Program-made: the position numbers and the translations under genes | From: Diadema setosum | Lineage: Eukaryota > Echinodermata > Echinoidea > Diadematoida > Diadematidae | DNA length: 64,000 nucleotides | NCBI RefSeq assembly: GCF_964275005.1 | Contig: NC_092688.1 | Location: forward strand, 25,658,934-25,722,933 | Direction: 5' to 3' | Part shown: piece by piece, positions 1,322 through 61,000 of the stretch | How positions within the stretch are numbered: the stretch's first letter is position 1 | Layout: each line of letters opens with the position of its first letter | The notes under the pieces: model-generated | The model's database searches: none | The model's input: the letters and a program-made list of their open reading frames with translations, nothing else | Told to the model about the DNA's origin: nothing

Positions 1322-4300
1322 CTATCAGAGAAAAGTCACACACAAAACCACCATGAAGTACATCTATCATCCTTTCCTGAAAATTATTTTTGCTTTAAAG
1401 TGAAATATTACTCATGAAGCTTTCATTGTCTAACATCATCAAAACAAGTTGGAATAGAACTTTAGAAAAAAAAAAGAGACTCTGAAGAACAGGACTTATT
1501 CTAGTGCACTGACATAAGTCAACTTGTGTCGATGATTGTGTGTGTGTCAGCGTTTAGAAATATAAGCCAACTACATTTTTTTTTTTTTTTTGGGGGGGTA
1601 TTGTCAGATAAACGTAGAACGGGGGGGGGGGGGACTCAGCTGCAATATTCTATTTCTGATTATGTCGAAGGCACTGCTGTCCGTAAAGTTTCTTAATAGT
1701 CACGATAGTATGCTTACACACTTTGAGGTGGAAAATTGAGATAAAGAACAAAAGTGGCTTGATGTACGATACCGCTTAAAACCACTACAGATTTCAGGAA
1801 ATGATTTCAAGCGCAGACCCATAATAGCAATGTATTATTGTAAGCGATTTCACATGCCTATTGGAAAAAAAGCTAAAGCCATGTGAATCTTTGGGGATTT
1901 TTTTTTAGTCCAAGTTAAGATTTCTTTTTTTCTTTTTTTCTTTTTTTTTTTGCCAGATATTACTCGATACTTTCTCATGTAAGTTCAGCTGCAGGGAGCA
2001 TTTTATATTCATTTACGTATGTTAGATGGACCACGAATTGGATTTATTCCAATCAATTGCACTACACGCTATATACATTACAAAAGAAAATGAATAAAAA
2101 AAAATTGAGGGAATTTTCCTGTCATATCTTCTTTCTCAAGCCTCCTCACCCCCGCACCCCATAGAAACACGCATACTTACAGCAAAATTCTCCCTTCTTA
2201 GATAAAACCTGTAACCTAAAAGACGTAATTTGTGTGTCATTACCGCTGCACGGTTCCCATACGTGTTCTGTGGATGAGCCGAGGCGCCTCCGTGATCTCT
2301 TGTGCCTGGAATATGAGTCGAAGTGTTTGGCGGATCCAGCTGCGACAGCTCTTCACTGGAGTGGACTTTCGACTTTTGACTTGAAGCTTGTCGACGCCTA
2401 TACGTATAACATAAAATGAATAAAGAAAGAAAATAATACTCTTTGAATGCATCCTGTCCAGCTGGAGAGAACGTTACTGTAAATTACAGCACAAATTGTT
2501 ACATTGTCCAAAAAAAAAAAAAGATTAATATTTTTCTATCCATTTTCTCATTCCTTTTCATAATCAAAGTGTGATATAAAATTCCTGTCCCTCTAACAAA
2601 ATCTAGCACAGTGAATAACAAACAGAATATACCAAAAAGATTGTTTTCTTTTCTTTCATTGTATCTAAAGTAGCACAAATGAGTCTAACTTTTGACAACA
2701 AAGTTTTGAGATTTTTTTTTCTACTGCGATTTCTATTTTTTTAAGAATGTCTAGTGTAGAAGGAAAAATTGCCGTTTTTTTTATGTTTTGAAACAGTGGC
2801 AGAATGCTGACTCAATACTAGGACTTCAACTGGGAGAAATATTCATCCCCTACTAAAAGTCTGTATTTACCCACGGCAGTTGTCTATCCACTCACACTTG
2901 CTTAACAGCCTCCAAACTTTCACATCATTTTGTTTTTCCTTGTTTTTTGTGTGTCGTCCGTATTTTTTTTTTTAACTGTGTATACATAGGCGGCTCCTTG
3001 TCTTTGTTTTGATGGTGGTTTTTGTACAATAACTTAAGTAGAATGTTGCATCAATGAACATTTTGGGCGACAATGGAATACACAATAAACACAATAAAAT
3101 GTCTGGCGACCAGAAACTCAAACATCTCACCCCCCCCCCCCCCAATATGTAAGAGAAATACAAATCAAACAAAGCAAATTTACTTCAACATTCATGTGCA
3201 TTCAGTATACACTCACTTCTGAATATGTTTTGATTGTTCAATGAGTCGCATACAATGACTTCACACCCTAGATTTACAAACTAATTTTGATAAAAATTCA
3301 CCTTTTCTGTTGATGTCTACACCAAGCGATGGACAGTATGCCAACCACAGCAAAAAAAACGAGAAGGGTTCCCAGGATGTACGTAATAATATTATAATTG
3401 TTCCCGATACTCTCAGGATCTGGAAGATAAAGCATTAAGTTAAGATATAATTCATTATATATTAAACATATTTAAGATATAAATATGTAACATATATTTA
3501 TTCCCTATGTCACATTTTATTTCGATACAATTACAAAAATGATGCTATTGTAATGTATAGTAAAACAGTTTTATTGCAATGAATTATAGATATATGTAAA
3601 CATACATAATATGAAAATATTTTGGATGGTAAAGTAGTTAAGTTTATTACATCAGACTCTGATATATAGACAGAGCGTTTAGACTTTCCAAAATATAGAA
3701 GGATAACTAGGGAAGAAAATATGGTCAATAATATAGGTTTTCCCGGCCAATTTTGCACTTTTGTCAGTCCAATTTCTAATTGCTAATTATTCAATTTAGC
3801 AAAATTTAGCATAGATGACATGTTTGGCATTTCGATTTCATGATCTCTTCATTCAAATTCATTTAGGAGTATCCAAATTACCTTTAGTCTCATTCTAATT
3901 AACATTTTTTTAAAATTGAAATTCGTAAAACCAACGCAATCTCGTTATTCGTTCATTCAATTTAGAATGACATAGTCACGTGATCACGGACATGCCCTAC
4001 TCGTCATTCGAATTCATATTTAGGCATCCAATCTAACATCTTTTGCAGTCAATTTAGCACGCATGTTTATGCTTTGGTTCTTTCTTTATTTTTTTTTCAA
4101 CATAGTTATTGTTTTGCAAGCGTCATTACATTTCATGTTTTCGTATTTATTTTAGAGATTTTGGCAACATTTTTTTTTTCTTCAATGTGCTTATTGAATC
4201 TTCCGGTCCGAAGAAAGTGCATGTGGTCACAACTTATCTGGCCGTTGAGAGCTTTATTCCGAGTGTGTCGGCCAGTTCTAGGAAGTCAAGGTTATGATCG

Positions 4301-21120: not shown

Positions 21121-22615
21121 TCAATCAACAAGTGTGTCTACGCTTGTGTTTACATTTTGTATGACTATGAATGTATATAAAACATATTGAAGCACAAACA
21201 TGCCCTCATCATTTCAACTGATTTTTTTTTTACTTATCAACATAAGCGTATACACACAAGAGTGCTAGAATTCTTTTTCTTAACTGTCATGGTAGCAGAA
21301 CTAAAGTAAATGATGATGAGGAACACTTTTTGAAGTGATCTGGGAAAGCACAGCAGTTAAATCTGAGACACCCGATTCATTTTCTTAGGTTTATGATCAT
21401 TCAATGCTTTTATACGTATGGAGTAATTATAATTTTGTATAAAAAATGTTTGGGGTTTTCTTTTGATAAATTACTATCATCATTTCACATTCACTTTCAA
21501 CATGCCAGGGCTGGAAGTAGGAGATGATATTGAGACTAATATTCTTGCAGTGTGTGTCTTTGTATGTCACAAGTCATACGGTGTGATTTCAGAAGGGGCG
21601 TTTTCCCAAGCTGTAGAAAACTTATGACTACAGATGATTGCCCTCCTTCTGTCGATATATCAGGTCGAAGCGCGGGATGAACTACTCTTCCATACTCCAC
21701 CGAGTGTGAAGTGAATGTAAAAGTGTTACTGAAGTTCGTCGAAGCATATTGTATGTTGATATTTTTGGTCTTTCGTAAGCTGTCTATGTCCATGAAAACA
21801 AAAAAACAAAAATCCCACTCCTCGTTTTTTTTTTTCACTTTTATATCCTTGATCGGTAATAAATTCATAAATGTTGTTTGCCTCAAACATGCAGCTAATG
21901 AACGAAAGTTGCTCCCTATTCAGTATACTTTCATTGCACTGAACACACATGTGTTTAATGTATTATAACACTATAGTCAGCATCGAAATCTTTGGATTCT
22001 GAACGCGGAATTTCACTTCTTGCATATGATTCAGATTGAGTCGTTGACAAAAAGGTTAATGAAATGGTGATTTTGTTCCTCTTTAATTCAAATCAGTTGC
22101 TCCGGTATAGCTGTTAACTTTAACGGTCGGCGTTTGGAGTGATCGTATCCTTTAGCTTGAGTGTTTTAATCTAAATAAGATGCATTTTTAGGATGAAGGT
22201 AGAGCTGTGATCAAACTCTTTCAAGCCTTTTCCAGGATGTCTCCTCAGCAGTGAGTTCTTCAATGACGATGTTTACACTTTCACATCATAATACCACACA
22301 TTACATTAATCACGAAATAAGCGGCTAAGGGGGTTATGATTAAACGCATTTCCTCTCAGTTACAAAATTATCGATTCTCATGTTATTTGCCATCGTTGTG
22401 ATATACTCGAAACCACAAATTCCATAAAGGCGTAATAATCTTTCTATTCCACGATGGGCTTTCTCCTTCCCTTCCTCAGCAAATTGTAAATGAACAACAT
22501 CAGTCTTAAAACCCTACTGAATTTTCATTGTCTTCAACACCTTCAGTAGTAGCACTGCGGACACTGATTATCCTCGTTACAATGTAAATCAGTATTAATG
22601 ACCAGATTTTAATCT
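21121..22615. other. Spacer 1, middle part: no gene recognised
   Basis: The sequence aligns with 39180-40160 and 47250-47800 of spacer 2. A short minus-strand frame ending CDIQRHTLQEY (about 21541-21580) is conserved there, but so is the neighbouring non-coding DNA, so this does not prove coding. At about 22150 lies the empty counterpart of the insertion site used by the inverted array. Confidence 0.6.
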
Positions 22616-24157: not shown

Positions 24158-24973
24158 TTAGAGTTCTGGTTCACGAGGAATACTCTCATATACTGTTGAA
24201 TTGAAGTCATCTTCTCTTCTTGGGGAAATGTCGCTTTCGTACAAATCTCTTTTTGAGGACGGAAAGTTGTTTTGGCTCTCACAGCGACCATTGATGTTTT
24301 CATCAGTATGTGCTTCTAAAACGAGATAGCCATGTTCGTCCACCTCATGCTCCACTCTTGGCGTGCTAGGATAGATAGAAGCCGCATATAAAGGATCGTT
24401 CTGGGTCATCGCATAAGGGCCAAATTCGTCATTTCCTTCGATATTCCAGTAAGTAGGACAGTACTGCGGTTCTGGAATAGGCGTGGATTGGTCAGAAGCT
24501 GAGGGAATTTCATGGTATATTGACGATTGGACGTTTCCAGACTGACTAGTGTCACCTGCAGCTCTTGTGGGCTGATTAGATAATGCTGTGCCAACTGTGT
24601 TACCACTGGGTGAGACTCTGTTGATCTCACAAAGCTCTATCGTACCCCGACTTGCTTGAGGTTTAACTCTAGTAACTCTGTGCAGACTGACATTGGAAAG
24701 GAGGTAGCCGTCTTCATCAACGTCTCTTTCCTCTTCACTGATATGTCTGGATTGAAGAAATATGATATTCTTGTTCCCCTTCTTTCCTGAACCTGACATG
24801 TCCATGTATAGTGCTTTCGTGTTATCGGCTCCAGTATTCATACACTCAAAAAAGTGTTCACTATCCTGGTGTATGACGTCATGAAAAAGGAGTGATCTAG
24901 TTTCAGCTGAGCTTTCAACACCTCTCCTGCTGCTCATTTTAGGTTCACGAGACAGGTCCAGTGACATGCGACC
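24158..24973 (-). CDS. R2 exon 11: cytoplasmic tyrosine-motif tail
   Basis: 272 codons after acceptor TATGATAG. About 25 codons longer than R1 through a Ser/Gln/Thr-rich insert after the DEDGYLLS region. It keeps ALYMDM, DEDGYLLS, IYHEIP, TYWNI, PYAMTQ, LYAASIY, DEHGYLVL, DLYESDI and TVYESIP, and ends REPEL. Confidence 0.87.
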   Translation of the reverse strand, partial: GRMSLDLSREPKMSSRRGVESSAETRSLLFHDVIHQDSEHFFECMNTGADNTKALYMDMSGSGKKGNKNIIFLQSRHISEEERDVDEDGYLLSNVSLHRVTRVKPQASRGTIELCEINRVSPSGNTVGTALSNQPTRAAGDTSQSGNVQSSIYHEIPSASDQSTPIPEPQYCPTYWNIEGNDEFGPYAMTQNDPLYAASIYPSTPRVEHEVDEHGYLVLEAHTDENINGRCESQNNFPSSKRDLYESDISPRREDDFNSTVYESIPREPEL

Positions 24974-40153: not shown

Positions 40154-40165
40154 TTGTTTCTGTTT
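40154..40165. repeat. Left 12-bp direct repeat flanking the inverted array (target-site duplication)
   Basis: TTGTTTCTGTTT, identical to 47236-47247. The aligned spacer 1 site (about 22150) has only one similar stretch and no array, so the repeat is best read as a target-site duplication made when the array or its founder inserted. Confidence 0.8.
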
Positions 40166-43100
40166 TTCCAAATTCATGAATTTCTTCCGTCGAGATGTTT
40201 TTCATTGCAACTGATTGACAAATTGCCCTACATCGACGTATAAAATAAGCACTGAATTGATCAGTGTTTTTTAGTAGTAGCCATGATAAAAATCATGGGC
40301 GTACATACTCGAGCAGGATTCGAACCTACGACCTCCTGATCACCGGACAGGCGTCATCTCCACTAGACCACCGAGCTTTCGCCCGACAGCAAGTGTTGGT
40401 TCTAATCCTTATAGCATGCAGCGGGTACTGCTTTGTTATTCAAATTCATGAATTTCTTCCGTCGAGATGTTTTCATTGCAACTGATTGACAAATTGCCCT
40501 ACATCGACGTATAAAATAAGCACTGAATTGATCAGTGTTTTTTAGTAGTAGCCATGATAAAAATCATGGGCGTACATACTCGAGCAGGATTCGAACCTAC
40601 GACCTCCTGATCACCGGACAGGCGTCATCTCCACTAGACCACCGAGCTTTCGCCCGACAGCAAGTGTTGGTTCTAATCCTTATAGCATGCAGCGGGTACT
40701 GCTTTGTTATTCAAATTCATGAATTTCTTCCGTCGAGATGTTTTCATTGCAACTGATTGACAAATTGCCCTACATCGACGTATAAAATAAGCACTGAATT
40801 GATCAGTGTTTTTTAGTAGTAGCCATGATAAAAATCATGGGCGTACATACTCGAGCAGGATTCGAACCTACGACCTCCTGATCACCGGACAGGCGTCATC
40901 TCCACTAGACCACCGAGCTTTCGCCCGACAGCAAGTGTTGGTTCTAATCCTTATAGCATGCAGCGGGTACTGCTTTGTTATTCAAATTCATGAATTTCTT
41001 CCGTCGAGATGTTTTCATTGCAACTGATTGACAAATTGCCCTACATCGACGTATAAAATAAGCACTGAATTGATCAGTGTTTTTTAGTAGTAGCCATGAT
41101 AAAAATCATGGGCGTACATACTCGAGCAGGATTCGAACCTACGACCTCCTGATCACCGGACAGGCGTCATCTCCACTAGACCACCGAGCTTTCGCCCGAC
41201 AGCAAGTGTTGGTTCTAATCCTTATAGCATGCAGCGGGTACTGCTTTGTTATTCAAATTCATGAATTTCTTCCGTCGAGATGTTTTCATTGCAACTGATT
41301 GACAAATTGCCCTACATCGACGTATAAAATAAGCACTGAATTGATCAGTGTTTTTTAGTAGTAGCCATGATAAAAATCATGGGCGTACATACTCGAGCAG
41401 GATTCGAACCTACGACCTCCTGATCACCGGACAGGCGTCATCTCCACTAGACCACCGAGCTTTCGCCCGACAGCAAGTGTTGGTTCTAATCCTTATAGCA
41501 TGCAGCGGGTACTGCTTTGTTATTCAAATTCATGAATTTCTTCCGTCGAGATGTTTTCATTGCAACTGATTGACAAATTGCCCTACATCGACGTATAAAA
41601 TAAGCACTGAATTGATCAGTGTTTTTTAGTAGTAGCCATGATAAAAATCATGGGCGTACATACTCGAGCAGGATTCGAACCTACGACCTCCTGATCACCG
41701 GACAGGCGTCATCTCCACTAGACCACCGAGCTTTCGCCCGACAGCAAGTGTTGGTTCTAATCCTTATAGCATGCAGCGGGTACTGCTTTGTTATTCAAAT
41801 TCATGAATTTCTTCCGTCGAGATGTTTTCATTGCAACTGATTGACAAATTGCCCTACATCGACGTATAAAATAAGCACTGAATTGATCAGTGTTTTTTTA
41901 GTAGTAGCCATGATAAAAATCATGGGCGTACATACTCGAGCAGGATTCGAACCTACGACCTCCTGATCACCGGACAGGCGTCATCTCCACTAGACCACCG
42001 AGCTTTCGCCCGACAGCAAGTGTTGGTTCTAATCCTTATAGCATGCAGCGGGTACTGCTTTGTTATTCAAATTCATGAATTTCTTCCGTCGAGATGTTTT
42101 CATTGCAACTGATTGACAAATTGCCCTACATCGACGTATAAAATAAGCACTGAATTGATCAGTGTTTTTTAGTAGTAGCCATGATAAAAATCATGGGCGT
42201 ACATACTCGAGCAGGATTCGAACCTACGACCTCCTGATCACCGGACAGGCGTCATCTCCACTAGACCACCGAGCTTTCGCCCGACAGCAAGTGTTGGTTC
42301 TAATCCTTATAGCATGCAGCGGGTACTGCTTTGTTATTCAAATTCATGAATTTCTTCCGTCGAGATGTTTTCATTGCAACTGATTGACAAATTGCCCTAC
42401 ATCGACGTATAAAATAAGCACTGAATTGATCAGTGTTTTTTAGTAGTAGCCATGATAAAAATCATGGGCGTACATACTCGAGCAGGATTCGAACCTACGA
42501 CCTCCTGATCACCGGACAGGCGTCATCTCCACTAGACCACCGAGCTTTCGCCCGACAGCAAGTGTTGGTTCTAATCCTTATAGCATGCAGCGGGTACTGC
42601 TTTGTTATTCAAATTCATGAATTTCTTCCGTCGAGATGTTTTCATTGCAACTGATTGACAAATTGCCCTACATCGACGTATAAAATAAGCACTGAATTGA
42701 TCAGTGTTTTTTAGTAGTAGCCATGATAAAAATCATGGGCGTACATACTCGAGCAGGATTCGAACCTACGACCTCCTGATCACCGGACAGGCGTCATCTC
42801 CACTAGACCACCGAGCTTTCGCCCGACAGCAAGTGTTGGTTCTAATCCTTATAGCATGCAGCGGGTACTGCTTTGTTATTCAAATTCATGAATTTCTTCC
42901 GTCGAGATGTTTTCATTGCAACTGATTGACAAATTGCCCTACATCGACGTATAAAATAAGCACTGAATTGATCAGTGTTTTTTAGTAGTAGCCATGATAA
43001 AAATCATGGGCGTACATACTCGAGCAGGATTCGAACCTACGACCTCCTGATCACCGGACAGGCGTCATCTCCACTAGACCACCGAGCTTTCGCCCGACAG

Positions 43101-43707
43101 CAAGTGTTGGTTCTAATCCTTATAGCATGCAGCGGGTACTGCTTTGTTATTCAAATTCATGAATTTCTTCCGTCGAGATGTTTTCATTGCAACTGATTGA
43201 CAAATTGCCCTACATCGACGTATAAAATAAGCACTGAATTGATCAGTGTTTTTTTAGTAGTAGCCATGATAAAAATCATGGGCGTACATACTCGAGCAGG
43301 ATTCGAACCTACGACCTCCTGATCACCGGACAGGCGTCATCTCCACTAGACCACCGAGCTTTCGCCCGACAGCAAGTGTTGGTTCTAATCCTTATAGCAT
43401 GCAGCGGGTACTGCTTTGTTATTCAAATTCATGAATTTCTTCCGTCGAGATGTTTTCATTGCAACTGATTGACAAATTGCCCTACATCGACGTATAAAAT
43501 AAGCACTGAATTGATCAGTGTTTTTTAGTAGTAGCCATGATAAAAATCATGGGCGTACATACTCGAGCAGGATTCGAACCTACGACCTCCTGATCACCGG
43601 ACAGGCGTCATCTCCACTAGACCACCGAGCTTTCGCCCGACAGCAAGTGTTGGTTCTAATCCTTATAGCATGCAGCGGGTACTGCTTTGTTATTCAAATT
43701 CATGAAT
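40166..43707 (-). repeat. Left arm of giant inverted array: 13 units of 271 bp
   Basis: Thirteen head-to-tail units, each with ATTCATGAATTTCTTCCGTC, TTGCAACTGATTGAC, the hairpin CACTGAATTGATCAGTG, the hairpin CCATGATAAAAATCATGG, and a tRNA-like module on the minus strand. Units are almost identical; the clear differences are a 7-T instead of 6-T run in units 7 and 12 and small changes in the first partial unit. The 73-codon frame repeated here is the antisense of the tRNA-like module, not a gene. Confidence 0.93.
40306..40377 (-). tRNA. tRNA-like module (representative of 13 in the left arm), probable SINE-type pseudo-tRNA
   Basis: 72 nt with standard cloverleaf spacing: acceptor 7, D-arm, 7-nt anticodon loop, T-arm 5+7+5. 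A box TGGTCTAGTGG (rc of 40360-40370) and B box GGTTCGAATCC (rc of 40316-40326) match Pol III promoter consensus. Defects: A1-A72, T13-T22 and T31-T39 mismatches, and C33 instead of U33; formal anticodon GGT. A working tRNA is unlikely; a Pol III-transcribed tRNA-derived repeat is likely. Others follow every 271 bases. Confidence 0.6.
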
Positions 43708-43733
43708 GCAATGAAAACATCTCGACGGAAGAA
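43708..43733. other. 26-nt centre of the palindrome
   Basis: Spacer between the arms: ATTCATGAAT (43698-43707), 26 nt, then ATTCATGAAT again (43734-43743) followed by the complement of the left arm. The spacer is the start of a right-arm unit, so the inversion joined two units at the small palindrome ATTCATGAAT. Confidence 0.9.
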
Positions 43734-46700
43734 ATTCATGAATTTGAATAACAAAGCAGTACCCGCTGCATGCTATAAGGATTAGAACCAACACTTGCTG
43801 TCGGGCGAAAGCTCGGTGGTCTAGTGGAGATGACGCCTGTCCGGTGATCAGGAGGTCGTAGGTTCGAATCCTGCTCGAGTATGTACGCCCATGATTTTTA
43901 TCATGGCTACTACTAAAAAACACTGATCAATTCAGTGCTTATTTTATACGTCGATGTAGGGCAATTTGTCAATCAGTTGCAATGAAAACATCTCGACGGA
44001 AGAAATTCATGAATTTGAATAACAAAGCAGTACCCGCTGCATGCTATAAGGATTAGAACCAACACTTGCTGTCGGGCGAAAGCTCGGTGGTCTAGTGGAG
44101 ATGACGCCTGTCCGGTGATCAGGAGGTCGTAGGTTCGAATCCTGCTCGAGTATGTACGCCCATGATTTTTATCATGGCTACTACTAAAAAAACACTGATC
44201 AATTCAGTGCTTATTTTATACGTCGATGTAGGGCAATTTGTCAATCAGTTGCAATGAAAACATCTCGACGGAAGAAATTCATGAATTTGAATAACAAAGC
44301 AGTACCCGCTGCATGCTATAAGGATTAGAACCAACACTTGCTGTCGGGCGAAAGCTCGGTGGTCTAGTGGAGATGACGCCTGTCCGGTGATCAGGAGGTC
44401 GTAGGTTCGAATCCTGCTCGAGTATGTACGCCCATGATTTTTATCATGGCTACTACTAAAAAACACTGATCAATTCAGTGCTTATTTTATACGTCGATGT
44501 AGGGCAATTTGTCAATCAGTTGCAATGAAAACATCTCGACGGAAGAAATTCATGAATTTGAATAACAAAGCAGTACCCGCTGCATGCTATAAGGATTAGA
44601 ACCAACACTTGCTGTCGGGCGAAAGCTCGGTGGTCTAGTGGAGATGACGCCTGTCCGGTGATCAGGAGGTCGTAGGTTCGAATCCTGCTCGAGTATGTAC
44701 GCCCATGATTTTTATCATGGCTACTACTAAAAAACACTGATCAATTCAGTGCTTATTTTATACGTCGATGTAGGGCAATTTGTCAATCAGTTGCAATGAA
44801 AACATCTCGACGGAAGAAATTCATGAATTTGAATAACAAAGCAGTACCCGCTGCATGCTATAAGGATTAGAACCAACACTTGCTGTCGGGCGAAAGCTCG
44901 GTGGTCTAGTGGAGATGACGCCTGTCCGGTGATCAGGAGGTCGTAGGTTCGAATCCTGCTCGAGTATGTACGCCCATGATTTTTATCATGGCTACTACTA
45001 AAAAACACTGATCAATTCAGTGCTTATTTTATACGTCGATGTAGGGCAATTTGTCAATCAGTTGCAATGAAAACATCTCGACGGAAGAAATTCATGAATT
45101 TGAATAACAAAGCAGTACCCGCTGCATGCTATAAGGATTAGAACCAACACTTGCTGTCGGGCGAAAGCTCGGTGGTCTAGTGGAGATGACGCCTGTCCGG
45201 TGATCAGGAGGTCGTAGGTTCGAATCCTGCTCGAGTATGTACGCCCATGATTTTTATCATGGCTACTACTAAAAAACACTGATCAATTCAGTGCTTATTT
45301 TATACGTCGATGTAGGGCAATTTGTCAATCAGTTGCAATGAAAACATCTCGACGGAAGAAATTCATGAATTTGAATAACAAAGCAGTACCCGCTGCATGC
45401 TATAAGGATTAGAACCAACACTTGCTGTCGGGCGAAAGCTCGGTGGTCTAGTGGAGATGACGCCTGTCCGGTGATCAGGAGGTCGTAGGTTCGAATCCTG
45501 CTCGAGTATGTACGCCCATGATTTTTATCATGGCTACTACTAAAAAACACTGATCAATTCAGTGCTTATTTTATACGTCGATGTAGGGCAATTTGTCAAT
45601 CAGTTGCAATGAAAACATCTCGACGGAAGAAATTCATGAATTTGAATAACAAAGCAGTACCCGCTGCATGCTATAAGGATTAGAACCAACACTTGCTGTC
45701 GGGCGAAAGCTCGGTGGTCTAGTGGAGATGACGCCTGTCCGGTGATCAGGAGGTCGTAGGTTCGAATCCTGCTCGAGTATGTACGCCCATGATTTTTATC
45801 ATGGCTACTACTAAAAAACACTGATCAATTCAGTGCTTATTTTATACGTCGATGTAGGGCAATTTGTCAATCAGTTGCAATGAAAACATCTCGACGGAAG
45901 AAATTCATGAATTTGAATAACAAAGCAGTACCCGCTGCATGCTATAAGGATTAGAACCAACACTTGCTGTCGGGCGAAAGCTCGGTGGTCTAGTGGAGAT
46001 GACGCCTGTCCGGTGATCAGGAGGTCGTAGGTTCGAATCCTGCTCGAGTATGTACGCCCATGATTTTTATCATGGCTACTACTAAAAAACACTGATCAAT
46101 TCAGTGCTTATTTTATACGTCGATGTAGGGCAATTTGTCAATCAGTTGCAATGAAAACATCTCGACGGAAGAAATTCATGAATTTGAATAACAAAGCAGT
46201 ACCCGCTGCATGCTATAAGGATTAGAACCAACACTTGCTGTCGGGCGAAAGCTCGGTGGTCTAGTGGAGATGACGCCTGTCCGGTGATCAGGAGGTCGTA
46301 GGTTCGAATCCTGCTCGAGTATGTACGCCCATGATTTTTATCATGGCTACTACTAAAAAACACTGATCAATTCAGTGCTTATTTTATACGTCGATGTAGG
46401 GCAATTTGTCAATCAGTTGCAATGAAAACATCTCGACGGAAGAAATTCATGAATTTGAATAACAAAGCAGTACCCGCTGCATGCTATAAGGATTAGAACC
46501 AACACTTGCTGTCGGGCGAAAGCTCGGTGGTCTAGTGGAGATGACGCCTGTCCGGTGATCAGGAGGTCGTAGGTTCGAATCCTGCTCGAGTATGTACGCC
46601 CATGATTTTTATCATGGCTACTACTAAAAAACACTGATCAATTCAGTGCTTATTTTATACGTCGATGTAGGGCAATTTGTCAATCAGTTGCAATGAAAAC

Positions 46701-47235
46701 ATCTCGACGGAAGAAATTCATGAATTTGAATAACAAAGCAGTACCCGCTGCATGCTATAAGGATTAGAACCAACACTTGCTGTCGGGCGAAAGCTCGGTG
46801 GTCTAGTGGAGATGACGCCTGTCCGGTGATCAGGAGGTCGTAGGTTCGAATCCTGCTCGAGTATGTACGCCCATGATTTTTATCATGGCTACTACTAAAA
46901 AACACTGATCAATTCAGTGCTTATTTTATACGTCGATGTAGGGCAATTTGTCAATCAGTTGCAATGAAAACATCTCGACGGAAGAAATTCATGAATTTGA
47001 ATAACAAAGCAGTACCCGCTGCATGCTATAAGGATTAGAACCAACACTTGCTGTCGGGCGAAAGCTCGGTGGTCTAGTGGAGATGACGCCTGTCCGGTGA
47101 TCAGGAGGTCGTAGGTTCGAATCCTGCTCGAGTATGTACGCCCATGATTTTTATCATGGCTACTACTAAAAAACACTGATCAATTCAGTGCTTATTTTAT
47201 ACGTCGATGTAGGGCAATTTGTCAATCAGTTGCAA
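43734..47235 (+). repeat. Right arm of giant inverted array: 13 units of 271 bp
   Basis: Mirror image of 40205-43707. The second unit from the centre has a 7-A run, mirroring the 7-T run of left unit 12, while left unit 7's extra T has no mirror here. The arm stops at CAATCAGTTGCAA, 39 bases short of where the left arm starts, then the 12-bp direct repeat follows. Confidence 0.93.
47063..47134 (+). tRNA. tRNA-like module (representative of 13 in the right arm), probable SINE-type pseudo-tRNA
   Basis: Same 72-nt module on the plus strand. A box 47070-47080, B box 47114-47124. A T5 run about 16 bases downstream (GATTTTTATC) could end Pol III transcripts. An outer GGGCG/CGCCC pair brackets the module. 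Confidence 0.6.
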
Positions 47236-47247
47236 TTGTTTCTGTTT
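47236..47247. repeat. Right 12-bp direct repeat flanking the inverted array
   Basis: TTGTTTCTGTTT, exact match of 40154-40165. Spacer 2 then continues collinear with spacer 1 (ATGCATTTTTAGGAT at about 22180 and 47262). Confidence 0.8.
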
Positions 47248-49691: not shown

Positions 49692-50450
49692 TTAGAGTTC
49701 TGGTTCGCGTGCAGGAATACTCTCATACACTGTTGAATTGAAGTGATCTTCTGTACTTGGGGAAATTTCGCTTTCGTACAAATCTGTTTTTGTGGAAGAT
49801 AAGCTATTGTGGCTCTCACAACGATCAGTGACGTTTTCATCAGTATGTGCTTCTAAAACGAGATAGCCATGTTCATCCACCTCGTGCTCCACTCTTGGCG
49901 TGCTAGGATAGATAGAAGCTGCATAATAAGGATCGTTCTGGGTCATCGCATAAGAGCCAAATTTGTCATTTCCTTCGATATTCCAATAAGTAGGACAGTA
50001 CTGCGGTTCTGGAATAGGCGCGGTTTGGTCATAAGCTGTGAGAATTTCGTGGTAAATTGACGATTGACAGTTCCTAGATTGACTATTGTCATCTACAGAT
50101 CTGGACTGGGTAGCTGACACTTTGCTGATTTCTTTACCACACACTGACACACTTGCTTCAGGTTGAACTCTATTAACTCTGTGCAAACTGACATTGGTAA
50201 GGAGGTAGCCGTCTTCATCAACGTCTTCTTCCTCTTTATCAAAATGCTTTGAATGAAGAAATGTGACCTTCTTCTTCTCCTTATTTCCTGAACCTGACAT
50301 GTCCACGTACAGTGCTTTCGTGTTATCCGCTACATCATTATTACCACCCTGGTGTATGACGTCATGAGGACATGATCTAGTGTATGCTGAACCTCTCCCG
50401 CTCCTCTGTCTAGTTTCACGAGATTGGTCCGTTGAAGATGACATGTGATC
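49692..50450 (-). CDS. R3 exon 11: cytoplasmic tyrosine-motif tail
   Basis: 253 codons after acceptor TAATACAG. Tyrosines: ALYVDM, DEDGYLLT, IYHEIL, TYWNI, SYAMTQ, YYAASIY, DEHGYLVL, DLYESEI, TVYESIP; ends REPEL. Linkers between motifs have diverged more than the motifs. Confidence 0.87.
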   Translation of the reverse strand, partial: DHMSSSTDQSRETRQRSGRGSAYTRSCPHDVIHQGGNNDVADNTKALYVDMSGSGNKEKKKVTFLHSKHFDKEEEDVDEDGYLLTNVSLHRVNRVQPEASVSVCGKEISKVSATQSRSVDDNSQSRNCQSSIYHEILTAYDQTAPIPEPQYCPTYWNIEGNDKFGSYAMTQNDPYYAASIYPSTPRVEHEVDEHGYLVLEAHTDENVTDRCESHNSLSSTKTDLYESEISPSTEDHFNSTVYESIPAREPEL

Positions 50451-53400
50451 CTGTATTAGAAAACCCACAAAAAATCACCATGAGGCACATTTATATGAGC
50501 ATAGCTTCTGAAAAGGGAAATCTTATTACTCATCAAACTTACATGTTTCCTCATCATCGAAATACATGATTGGAAATCAAAACAAATAGGAATAATACTT
50601 TAGAGAAAAGAGGATCCGAAAAATACGGTATAGCCTAGTGCAATAAGTCAACTTAAGTCGACGATTGTGTGTGGACTAAGCTGACATTTAAAACTAAAAA
50701 GCAACTACAGGTACAGATTGTCAGTTAGAAGTACATCTCGGGGCACTCAGTTGCAATAGTTTAGCATGATCATATCAAAATATCAAAGGTACCGCTGACT
50801 GTAACATATAGTGGACTCCCGTTATAACGAAGTTCTCGGGAACGGCAGTTTTCTTTCATTATATCGAAATTTCGTTGTAACCAAACAATTAACCAATAAA
50901 AAACATAGAGTGGATAATGTTGCGGCGTTATTTTTGTCTTTCTTGTAACCAGAATGTTATTATAACCGTGTTCGTTGTCATTATAACGGGAGTGCACTGT
51001 AATCACCTACGTTTGCTCGATAAACTGAGATAAAAGGATTTACTCTCATTTCTAAAACCACAATCTGCGAACCCGAACTTGTGTGTCGCTAATTACCTCT
51101 GCTGAGTTCTCATACGCGTTCTCTCGGTGACCTATGTCTCCAAATTTGTTGCCCGGATGTTGGGGCAAAACCCGGCCTGCTGAATAAGTGTCGATACTGG
51201 TAGAGTGCAATGAAACAACTCTGTCTTTTGAGCCTGGAGTCGAAGTGTTTAGAGGATTCAGCTGCGACTGCTCTTCACTTGAGTTGACATTTGACTGACC
51301 CGAAGCCTCTGGACGCCTACATGTATTACATTGCGTAAAATAAAGAGGAAAATCGTTAAGAAGTGAATGCATACTGTCAAACTTGAGAAGGTGTAATTAT
51401 AGGCCGCTCAAAGGATAAAATAGAATTTAAAAAAAATGTTACTTCGTAACCATAAATTAGCTAGCACAGTTTAATACAAACAAAAAAAAACTCCCACCAA
51501 TATGGTTTTTTCAGTTGTTGTACATAAATAGGCAAAATTAGTTTGAACTTTTTGTAGCAAAGTTTAATGTGATGAAAATACCATCCAGATTCTTTTCTCT
51601 TTCTTTTTTTCTCTCTTTATCTCCAGTTTAGATTTGATTATTGTTATTATCATTATGCTACAAAACATCATCGGGAGAATACACCAAAACGTAAAACAGC
51701 TAATTCTAGCTGACATGTTTTCTCCTCTATTTTGATACCTTTGCGCTTTCATAAACCTGTCTTCTCAAATGTGTGTTTATTTATTGTTCACTGTTGTAAT
51801 CAATTGCTTGTGAGATTTGCGAATTAAGTAACACAATTATCGTTAAAATGACAGAATTACAAAATCAGACATTCTATTCTCGGCGACTTTTATCATGTTT
51901 TCGTGATGACTCTTTCCGCACTACAAATCTTGAAGATCTATACACAGAATCACTACATCTATGTGCATTTAACATTTGCATATTTCTAACTATGAATTAT
52001 TCAATGATTTTGCAGACCACTTTATGAATAAACCACCCCATCCCCTTTCCCCATATGATAGTTTGTATAAAAAGTCACCTTTTCTTTTGATGTTTCCACC
52101 AAGCCATAATCATTGAGAGTATGACAATCACGGCGAAAACAACACCGAGAAGGGTTCCCAGGATGTACGTAAAAAAATTCATCTCATAAAGTTCGGTATC
52201 TGGAAGATAAATGATTTAGTTATACTGTCGTCACATTGAAAGTCAATAGAGGAAGAATTTGCTCTAGTAGTTTTTCTCTTTCATGATGACTATAGTCAGA
52301 AATGAAGCCTCTATAATTAGATAAGACCATTATGAAGAGAAATAGTTCCATTCCATAACTTTGCAAGTTTTCTCACGTTGCTGAATTATCGCAGAATGAT
52401 AACAAAAAAGGAATTGTTTTTGCAGCTGACGCGTGACTGTTAAGACAGCATGAGATGGGAGACTTAAGAAAATCAGATTATTCGTGCGCGGTTTGAAGTG
52501 TTGTACTTGAATGTTCTCATGGAAGTTCACACACTTGACCGAAAGAGCATAATAGCGGATGGGGAATTATTACACAAATTCGTAAGCAGATTAGATCCTT
52601 AAGTGATTACTGTAGTAGGAATGTTTATCTCAACAGTCCCCAATTCCCTGATCTAGGCAGAGCATTCAGACTTTGACCAAAACTGTAAAAGAATAAGGGG
52701 ATCATTTAAAATGTTTTATAACTATTTACTTTGCATATATAGGCACACATAATGGAGCTTTTGCAAGAAATTGCGTATTTATTACACCAACACAAATGTG
52801 CTCTCTGACAGTAACAACACTACGAAGGCCTAATAAAGTCGCCTGACGTCAATATGTTTTCTTCAGTCCCTATTGAAGAAAAGCACATTACAACCTGCTC
52901 TTTCTTCACGGACATGGGGTATTCTCACTTTTGAATATGCATCACTTTTTCAGTATTTCTTTGCTTTATTGTCTGAGACTTTATTCTGGTAATGTGTTCA
53001 TTATTCGTACATTTGTGAAGTCAGCTCACAAAATTTCACTTAAAAAAAAGAACTACGGAAAAACGCTTGCAATATTCCGATGCTGTTCTATTATCAGACA
53101 TTTTTTTTTTTAGTTATCATAAAGCAGTAGCACTTTCATCCCTTGAGTTTAAATTGAAATAAAATTATGTCGTATTTATTGATAGTCACATGTGGATTGC
53201 TTTTGCCATAAAATATCTTGACAAACAGTTTACGCTGAAATGTAGAATAGCAGCAATAATGGTTCTGAAGTAACAAGAATTATCACTTAAGGTGATTAAT
53301 ACCCCCGCCCTTAGTGTTGCTTTATAGTATGTGATGTTATGAGGGCAATGACGTTAATACCAAGTTTGTGCATTTGTCGAATTGGAAACAGAACAATTTT

Positions 53401-58031: not shown

Positions 58032-61000
58032 CCCAACAAACATAAAACGTTGGTTTAAAGTCCTCTCCGTCTTCGTCTTTGATAATAACCGTTCAAAAAT
58101 GCTTTTTATTAGGTCCGCTAAGTCTGCGTCATTTTTAAACGTCCATAAAAGGTATTTATTTAGTCTTCTACTGGTTTCTATAATATCATGGACATTCATA
58201 CCAAATGCATAATTATGAATATTCCAGTGAGGAAAATATAAAATGTGAAAACTAGTGGGAGTGTATAAAAGACATTGAAATCTAAAGTATTTCTGCTGGG
58301 TGCAAACTTTTTAACCGTCTTGAGAATTGTACTTACGTTATTGCTCAGTTTTTTTACGCTTTCTGTGTTATGAAGAGGTATTTTCATATCTTAATAGGTC
58401 TAATTAAGGTTTGTGTGATTTAATTTTAGTAACCATGTCTTCACTCATTAAAACATTTTGCTGGTACATAAAAGAATGTGATAAAGATACATCAGCTAGG
58501 AATAGGATGTAATAGGTATGGTGGTAGGAACAGGTTAAAACAGGATTGATTATTACATGATAAATTTTAGGGTACACTTATCTGAGATTGTGCCTATATA
58601 ATCTCATAAGTAAGATGGTCACTACAACCTTTTTTTTTTCTTTTTTTTTTACCCAGATGGGCCCTTAGTGGAAACGTCAGCTGGGCTTCTTCAAAGGTTT
58701 GTAAAAGTTCTTACAAGGTTCTTACTAGTTTTTTCTAACCGTTTTTACAAAGTTTTCTAAGCGTTCTTAAAAGATTTTTTTTGAGCGTTCTCAAAACGTC
58801 TAAAGGTTTACTGCAGGTCCTTCGTCTGGAAAAAGAAAATTAATGAAAGGTTTTTATTGGTTTCTATAACGTTTAAAAACGTCTAATAAAACGTTTCATA
58901 AATGTCCAGAAAACATTATTCTTTTTCTTTTGCGAATCGTCCAAAGAACAAACTTTGAACGTTCTAAGAACGCTCAAAAAACGTCCGGTTGTTAGCGTGG
59001 TACACATATTCAGGGATCCTGTATACGGTGTGTCTCACCTCGGCATGTGAGTCTAACAAATGTGTTTGAAGAACATTCGGTGGTTGTCGATAAGCATTCA
59101 TCCAAACGAAGAGAACCTGTACATCGGTATCGAGGACAATCGAGTTATTCGATAGCAGTTTAAAGCTCACGATTTATTCAAATTAATGAAATTCTTGCGT
59201 CGAGTTGCTTTTATTACGACTGATTGACAAATTGCCTTACGTCGACGTAAATAAGCACTCAATAAGCAATCATTCATTCCGTAGTTCGATAAACTTCGAT
59301 GTATGGGACGATCTGTCAATCAGTTTCAAGAACTCACAATATTAGTAACAGTCATCTCTTGTCAGCACGAAATGACTCATTTAATGACAAATCTTAATGA
59401 TGTTAACAGTGATAACAGAAAAATACGGGAATTTTAAAAGAAAACAAGTCAATAATGAAAATAAATTGCACTATTCAACAAAAATATTGACTCATGAATT
59501 TACCATGTGTTTTTAATCGAAATAATCTTTTGATTATTCAGTGAGGTATTGTACACTCGAATACGCATGCAGTATTAATCTCATTGCCAAATTCTGTAGT
59601 CACCGTTTGAACACGATAGACGTTCAATCCTCCTCCCTGCTGCTGTATGATTACTGGTCAAAATCTGACCAAAGAACTCCTTTGCCGCTGGAAAGCCGAT
59701 CTCTTTGCAGACCAGTTTTGCAGTTGCGTTGGTAAATCCATCAAAGCAGACATAGCTGTCTGATCCGGTGACTAGTAGGCCGTCCAGGTGAGAGGGTCCG
59801 TCAATCAGCTTTACCGACGGTATTCCTTGCAAAATAATGAACAGTGGTTTTATGGTCTATTGCTTGTGATTATGTGTATAGCATTTGATGGAGTGTTCAA
59901 CTCAATCATGGTATGAGTGTAAACAGATTGTACTGAACATGTTGAATGAACGCTATAGTCTTGCAGGGTATTCGAGAACGGAGAATGATGATTACGCCTA
60001 TTCCAGTTACAGAAAGTCGTTGAATGAAAGTTTTGTTTGTTTGTTTGTTTATTTTTTGTTTACCCCTACCATGCCTACTTTGCCAAATATATTATTTACA
60101 TCAATTCATCAAAAGATTCGTCCATGTCAATTTTGTCTTGGATACATAATCAAGACCGCTGAAATTTACCCCGGGGAAGCTATGTGTGTAGCCTGACAAT
60201 GCCTATTGGGAAATGAAAAAACACAACAACGAATATTATAACTGTAATAGCTGAAGAGTATACTTTACGGTACACAGAATGCCAATTTGTCTTGATAGAT
60301 TATCAACACAAAGAAAGTCTTACAGAAAACTTTTTTGTTAGGTCTCTAGGTAATGTCTATACGTAATCTGTCAACAAAGGTATAATACAGCATTACTTCA
60401 TGCACAGGATGCGTTTTGTTAGTCATACTCTATTCTAACTGCATTCACTTTACGCAAAGTGGCAAATGGATACCCGAATATAAAAATGTTCCGCTTTTAC
60501 TCGACTTGAATTTTGTAAAACTTAAGATAATCAAGAGGTGGAGTCACTACAGTCCGTTTTATTTGTCGGAATTAGGCCTAAAAGTGATGAAATCGGCCTT
60601 CCAAGAGGGTGAACTTTTGAACATTTTCACACCACACAGCTCTAGTTTACACTTTTGCGTATATTTCTGGACACAATTTACTTTTATATTACACGTTTTA
60701 TCATAAAGGCGAAATCTTACTTCAGTAATTGAATGATAAGCAATAAATCACCAGCAATATTCTAGAGTCAAAATGAATCTTAAATGGGACTGCTCAGAAA
60801 GATTCAGGTTTAAACCTCTGACACGAAAGGCATAAACATGACACCATGCATTTGAAATGCTGTTGTGCATTTAGCCAGCAACCTCCTTGGTAAAACATTG
60901 AAAACAAACGTTTTCAAAGTCGTGAACAAAGGCTGCTTATGTGTATTAACCCGTTCCATACTGAATTGTGAAATGCCCATAGACTATTATACGCAGGCAA

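Follow-up and report, generated by a model that had tools for sequence, protein, structure and literature searches.

Results

An inverted array of tRNA-like units

We analysed a 64-kb stretch of the Diadema setosum genome (assembly GCF_964275005.1), referred to below as the window. At 40154-47247 it contains an array of short tRNA-like units in which, in the assembly, 13 minus-strand units are followed by 13 plus-strand units. The origin of this array and of its relatives elsewhere in the genome is the subject of this work. Unit positions are numbered from 43708, GCAATGAAAAC being position 0, and the two outer ends of the array are called A and B. The features of the array are as follows.

40154..40165, no strand: left target site duplication, 12 bp, TTGTTTCTGTTT, with only two copies in the window
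40166..43707, minus strand: left arm, 13 units, tRNA sense leftward, outer end = B end (unit position ~43-45)
43700..43712, no strand: inverted join between the two arms, unit positions 26 and 270 abutting, 1 nt in common
43708..47235, plus strand: right arm, 13 units, tRNA sense rightward, outer end = A end (unit position ~4, ..CAATCAGTTGCAA)
43708..43978, plus strand: reference 271-bp unit, starting GCAATGAAAAC
43979..43983, plus strand: internal copy of start site A
43751..43751, plus strand: internal copy of start site B
47236..47247, no strand: right 12-bp target site duplication
22154..22175, no strand: spacer of the paralogous stretch, array absent, approximate empty site

Tandem Repeats Finder (TRF) resolved the array into two 271-bp arrays (40161-43707 and 43707-47236), and ARAGORN and Rfam each detected 26 tRNA-like genes, every copy scoring 42.8 bits in Rfam at a gathering score of 29. 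Complete core-to-core units number 24; 21 of them share one 271-bp sequence, and the other three measure 272 bp through one additional A within a homopolymer. The sequence TTGTTTCTGTTT occurs at 40154-40165 and 47236-47247 and nowhere else in the window, and its reverse complement has no occurrence there. The flanks of the array are paralogous (78% identity) to 21371-22153 and 22176-22486, which adjoin without an array; the target copy at this empty site is only approximate because the paralogous spacer has diverged. The preliminary description of the window had claimed 13 + 13 near-identical 271-bp units, exact 12-bp repeats bounding them and an empty site in a paralogous spacer, and our data bear out all three statements. 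The five open reading frames (ORFs) of at least 150 aa in the window all lie outside the array, and no ORF with reverse transcriptase (RT) and GIY-YIG endonuclease was found in the array itself.

Related insertions across the genome

A search of 912.7 Mb on 102 contigs returned at least 298 matches to the unit (38 of 1614 candidates scored); for another query the candidate places numbered 1490. Together with the window, 25 further loci fetched from the places listed made up a sample of 26 loci, numbered with the prefix L. The query used for these loci begins at the B end of the window array. Loci with a B end may therefore be over-represented, but the pairing of B with A cannot come from this bias. 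Two arms with both ends in view and a target duplication were seen at 20 of the 26 loci. The duplication measures 12 bp at 10 of these, 13 bp at five, 15 bp at two and 14, 11 and 10 bp at one each; lengths above 12 bp may include letters common to the unit ends. On both arms the tRNA sense points outward at all 22 fetched two-armed loci, and the same outward strand order was found at 10 of 10 two-armed loci known by coordinates only (3 + 7, from two listings), the other places in these listings being on one strand only. Homopolymer runs adjoin two of the sampled ends, poly(T) at the right end of L022 and poly(G) at the left end of L024, in both cases with no target duplication.

The consensus units of the window and of L009 are identical, and we therefore regard these insertions as recent. 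L011 carries at 3344-4151 a decayed array of the tRNA-unit family (68-73% identity), and the window itself holds a relic of the unit at 59174-59263 (minus strand, 90 bp, 85% identity), which begins at the B end and ends after one third of the unit. Hence the family predates its recent burst. The stretch 3655-4151 of L011 recurs at 20 genome places with 92-100% identity and may be carried by another dispersed repeat.

Two fixed outer ends and scattered inner joins

One outer end lies at A (~4, ..CAATCAGTTGCAA) and the other at B (~43, ..ATTCATGAATTTGAA) in all 20 complete two-armed insertions, and in none of them is the same outer end used twice. These positions, which can be read directly from the assembled loci, are sharply defined, with means of 4.5 for A and 42.5 for B (concentration 0.997 each), 38 nt apart. 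Independent choice of A or B would give 20 mixed pairs out of 20 with a probability of 0.5^20 = 1e-6. The 40 inner ends, on the other hand, are scattered evenly over the unit (concentration 0.14), and no clustering that could mark the 5′ end of a linear RNA was found among them. Arms range from 0.17 to 15.9 units in length, with A and B arms alike (Wilcoxon p=0.57) and partner arms moderately correlated (Spearman 0.52, p=0.02).

The cut at the B end has the preferred target TT|GTT, with T at -2 and at -1 in 14/20 insertions each, G at +1 in 13/20 (p=8e-6 against flank composition), T at +2 in 15/20 (p=7e-5) and T at +3 in 14/20. On the other strand, the cut at the A end shows a weaker pattern (T at +2 in 15/20, G at +1 in 8/20), which is blurred because letters are common to target and unit. 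This geometry corresponds to a cut staggered by 12 nt that leaves 3′ overhangs, with one arm starting next to each of them, and at some loci (L023, L060) the 3′ end of the target also matches the RNA sequence beside the start site. At the centre of the insertions, 13 of the 20 have 1-18 letters common to both arms and seven have 1-54 extra letters. Near-equal unit positions are joined in a fold-back-like manner at four centres (L010, L016, L017 and L028), and the join pair of the window (26 against 270) is absent from the other 19 two-armed loci.

Uniformity of units within a locus

At young loci the units are near-identical within a locus, and the modal period is usually common to both arms: 271 in the window and L009, 269 at several loci, 267 at L021 and L028 and 266 at L023. 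Many loci also hold units that deviate from the modal period by one to a few bp, and at older loci such as L012 the units are mostly distinct. For 21 of 28 arms the consensus is at least as close to the partner arm as to any other locus, ties counted. At L023, L016 and L026 the two arms are identical to each other and unlike the other sampled loci. This uniformity within loci fits repeated copying of one monomer, for instance on a circular template, but a uniform multimer would produce the same picture.

The tRNA-like part and predicted signals of the unit

The reference unit contains the following features.

43809..43883, plus strand: one of the 26 tRNA-like sequences, Thr-GGT according to ARAGORN
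43817..43827, plus strand: TGGTCTAGTGG, fits an RNA polymerase III (Pol III) A box
43861..43871, plus strand: GGTTCGAATCC, fits a Pol III B box
43895..43899, plus strand: TTTTT in a small predicted hairpin, ~12 nt past the tRNA, possible Pol III terminator
43949..43998, plus strand: predicted hairpin (CGTCGA..TCGACG) around start site A

The A-box-like and B-box-like sequences, which we assigned by the Pol III consensus, suggest Pol III transcription of the unit; the run of five T ~12 nt behind the tRNA-like part is set against such a reading. A canonical tRNA has U33. In the anticodon arm of the unit, CCTGTCCGGTGATCAGG, the loop letter before the GGT anticodon is C and not T, which disfavours a cluster of functional tRNA genes. 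Pairing in the predicted hairpin around site A is kept in 23 of 24 cells across four sequences, and three of its six pairs change on both sides, a weak test since 28 of 500 shuffles do as well. A 24-mer of the unit had no exact match in viral contigs.

Resident Penelope-like elements

At least 51 GIY-YIG matches were found in the genome (150 of 247 candidates scored), and 30 such loci were fetched. Several of the 17 translated loci carry RT of the type found in Penelope-like elements (PLEs) together with GIY-YIG, both assigned by characteristic motifs. Copies of several PLE families are 96-99.7% identical. Judged by these sequences, the genome contains recent PLE copies with both RT and GIY-YIG. 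The 3′ ends of family A lie at two places ~50 nt apart, and at L057, L064 and L067, the three two-armed loci of this family whose outer ends are both visible, there is one end of each kind and the arms point outward.

The copies of family A at L030, L033, L034 and L055-L058 adjoin (AT)n runs and are mostly 96-99.7% identical (L055 about 90%). Family F, represented by L066 1-6101 (C4:41436800-41442900) with L041 and L053, has a 961-aa frame; L066 consists of two head-to-head tandem arms laid out as in the tRNA arrays, and its outer ends are not in view.

Comparison of the unit with the 30 GIY-YIG loci gave no homology at E<=0.01 and weak short matches only. One short motif common to the unit and to PLE families A and D was found post hoc:

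43806..43816, plus strand: CGAAAGCTCGG

This motif resembles the 3′ half of a PLE hammerhead, and in families A and D it lies at the putative position of that ribozyme. None of 300 shuffles reached the summed match score of the unit against four PLE ends, the segments having been chosen after the motif was seen. When 20 PLE loci were searched with Rfam, 118 matches came up at E<=10; no hammerhead was among them, and no match attained its gathering score. A genome search with Hammerhead_1 was silent, as were its controls.

Other features of the window

Three paralogous ORFs at 581-1285, 24158-24967 and 49692-50468 (minus strand) lie in a segmental repeat of ~23-26 kb. They carry tyrosine motifs, for example DGYLLSN, HGYLVLE and STVYESIP, and are possibly the cytoplasmic tails of a tandem receptor family. 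The only relatives found for the ORF at 24158-24967 are two Diadema antillarum proteins, one at 65% identity, and four window ORFs had no match in Pfam.

Discussion

Probably, the array in the window arose in a single event, when Penelope-type machinery inserted a small, non-autonomous retroelement that carries a tRNA-like sequence. From the sequences we conclude that the element is SINE-like (short interspersed element), a relative of the retrozymes without a detectable hammerhead, and that its insertions are probably PLE-type concatemers, because the end pattern is as expected from two fixed primed starts and the resident PLE family A follows the same one-of-each rule.

We infer the following course of events. 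An endonuclease would make a staggered cut with 12-nt 3′ overhangs, preferably at TT|GTT. Both 3′ ends would prime reverse transcription on the unit RNA, one at site A (~4) and the other at site B (~43), and a circular or long multimeric RNA would let each cDNA run through the unit repeatedly, about 16 times at most. Joining of the two tandem cDNA arms would follow, at no fixed position and often at a few bases common to both, and filling of the overhangs would yield the 12-bp duplication. The tRNA-like part would probably serve as Pol III promoter and perhaps as processing signal.

Several observations weigh against this interpretation. Some loci depart from the two-armed layout: L061 has one arm and a 13-bp duplication, L015, L022 and L063 have one arm each and no target duplication, and the left end of L024 is lost in a run of G. 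L062, whose left end lies outside the fetched stretch, is counted with these among the incomplete loci. Seven of the 28 arms (in L014, L018, L025 and L027) failed the arm-consensus test. Within PLE family A, L065 is single-armed, with its left boundary in the coding region. Whereas the tRNA element uses TT|GTT sites, PLE families A and F terminate in (AT)n runs, so that neither family can be named as its partner, and no PLE sharing the end sequences of the unit was found in the genome. In the family-wise shuffles, the score was reached seven times for A, 15 times for C (borderline), twice for D and 73 times for F (not significant), each out of 300; moreover, families A, C and D share the CGAAAGCTCGG-type motif and the four families are related, which weakens the summed test. 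Rfam at E<=10 over 901 bases with three tRNAs found tRNA matches only and no ribozyme, although the unit may contain a degenerate hammerhead form. Because no ribozyme was detected and unprocessed RNA is reported as the main substrate of the Anolis PLE in vitro (PMC11167929), an RNA circle is not required. Finally, the strict one-of-each rule of the tRNA arrays exceeds the in vitro result for this PLE, where the start sites are described as the same on both strands (PMC11167929).

A more detailed version of the model is offered tentatively. The element could be a PLE-dependent SINE in which the tRNA-like module replaces the hammerhead as promoter and processing signal. A dimeric PLE enzyme would copy an RNA circle; the start site of each RT subunit would be fixed, A for one and B for the other, and the two subunits would work from opposite sides of the cut. 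A complete insertion would then be a two-sided rolling-circle concatemer, and the 'tail' of PLEs would correspond to the distance between the start sites of the subunits.

Among other explanations, twin priming by machinery of long interspersed elements (LINEs) fares best, but we consider it unlikely. Here, after a nick by a LINE endonuclease, the 3′ end of a multimeric SINE-like RNA would be copied first, and the second target strand, priming internally, would create the inverted arm. Twin priming, as in L1, also gives 10-15 bp duplications, arms in inverted order and joins with a few bases in common. However, it fixes the 3′ end alone and leaves the second start variable, whereas in all 20 insertions of our sample neither start varies and the two lie 38 nt apart. 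No poly(A) run was seen at the outer ends among the insertions checked, and the cut at TT|GTT differs from the TT|AA of L1-type enzymes.

Less probable still is a DNA route, by which replication of a circular or hairpin DNA unit would yield an inverted concatemer, and a transposase or end joining would integrate the product. Rolling DNA replication can give uniform tandem units in a palindromic layout, and the four fold-back-like centres (L010, L016, L017, L028) would suit such an origin. The outer ends, however, are not mirror images of each other: they differ in position by 38 nt and have the same polarity. Duplications around 12 bp that vary somewhat in length are unusual for transposases, and resident PLE family A obeys the same end rule.

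An assembly artefact with collapsed or falsely mirrored repeats is very improbable. The equal 13 + 13 counts in the window are suspicious by themselves, but arms are unequal elsewhere (4.94 against 0.17 units at L010, 4.27 against 0.63 at L060), no two centres are the same, and each of 20 loci has a target duplication of its own.

The weakest explanation, insertion of a single tRNA-derived element with later amplification and inversion at the site, is rejected because, even though unequal exchange can lengthen tandem arrays, all 20 complete insertions have their own duplication, the same two fixed outer positions and different central joins, with differing arm lengths and arms as short as 0.17, 0.54 and 0.58 units. 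The preliminary description had left this choice open. Its first option, a concatemer inserted in one event from circular or multimeric RNA, is now strongly favoured, and its second, amplification and inversion in place, falls away. Other arrays with their own target duplications, which it had proposed to look for as support for concatemer insertion, were indeed found (20/20 complete two-armed loci). Its statement that no standard element class has this form was too strong, since a PLE layout (PMC3846280, PMC11167929) and retrozymes (PMC7229834) are described.

Insertion by Penelope-type machinery agrees with several features reported for PLEs. The PLE protein of Poseidon from Anolis is reported to cut and extend both strands in vitro, with two adjacent internal start sites between which lies a 30-40 bp 'tail' (PMC11167929). 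Penelope elements of Adineta vaga are described with pseudo-LTRs (long terminal repeats) that can be inverted, 8- to 10-bp duplications (in some cases none) and an optional 31-bp tail on one pseudo-LTR (PMC3846280). The tRNA arrays resemble PLEs in their inverted arms, short duplication, tandem repeats and two adjacent start sites (38 nt apart, compared with the 30-40 of the PLE 'tail'). Unlike PLEs, the unit has no coding sequence for RT or GIY-YIG, is a 271-bp monomer of which one arm can hold up to 16 copies, and carries a tRNA-like sequence but no detectable hammerhead.

Metazoan retrozymes are described as small non-coding tandem units of 150-450 bp, for which RNA circles and PLEs as helpers have been proposed; their target duplications, where present, exceed 4 bp (PMC7229834, PMC7761336). 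The tRNA unit lies within this size range and is likewise tandem and non-coding, but the defining type I hammerhead was not found in it (Rfam, E<=10), and the word 'inverted' does not occur in the main text of PMC7229834. With tRNA-derived SINEs the element shares a tRNA head with A-box-like and B-box-like sequences, a non-coding unit and, presumably, movement in trans; it differs from them by two opposed concatemer arms, two fixed ends, the lack of a poly(A) run and the apparent PLE-type insertion. Helenus and other small-RNA-bearing LTR elements are reported to have LTRs, a primer-binding site, a polypurine tract and 4-5 bp duplications (PMC10886601). They too are non-autonomous retroelements with a tRNA-like Pol III promoter, but 10-15 bp duplications and inverted arms rule out a terminal-repeat retrotransposon in miniature (TRIM) or Helenus LTR element. 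Short nonautonomous Penelope elements are mentioned in passing in one paper, and among the literature matches listed we found no description of a layout of two inverted arms with tRNA.

The steps of PLE insertion are still open, and the 2024 in vitro study leaves the later ones to be validated (PMC11167929). Because they are non-coding, repeated and recent, the arrays described here record where strands start, how far they extend, how the cDNAs are joined and where the target is cut. The rule of one A and one B end suggests that the two start sites are partners in one event and not alternatives. If our interpretation is true, tRNA-bearing parasites would be driven not only by LINEs and LTR elements but by Penelope elements as well. 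It would also explain mirror-image arrays of tRNA-like sequences, which annotation possibly counts as tRNA genes, as ARAGORN did here.

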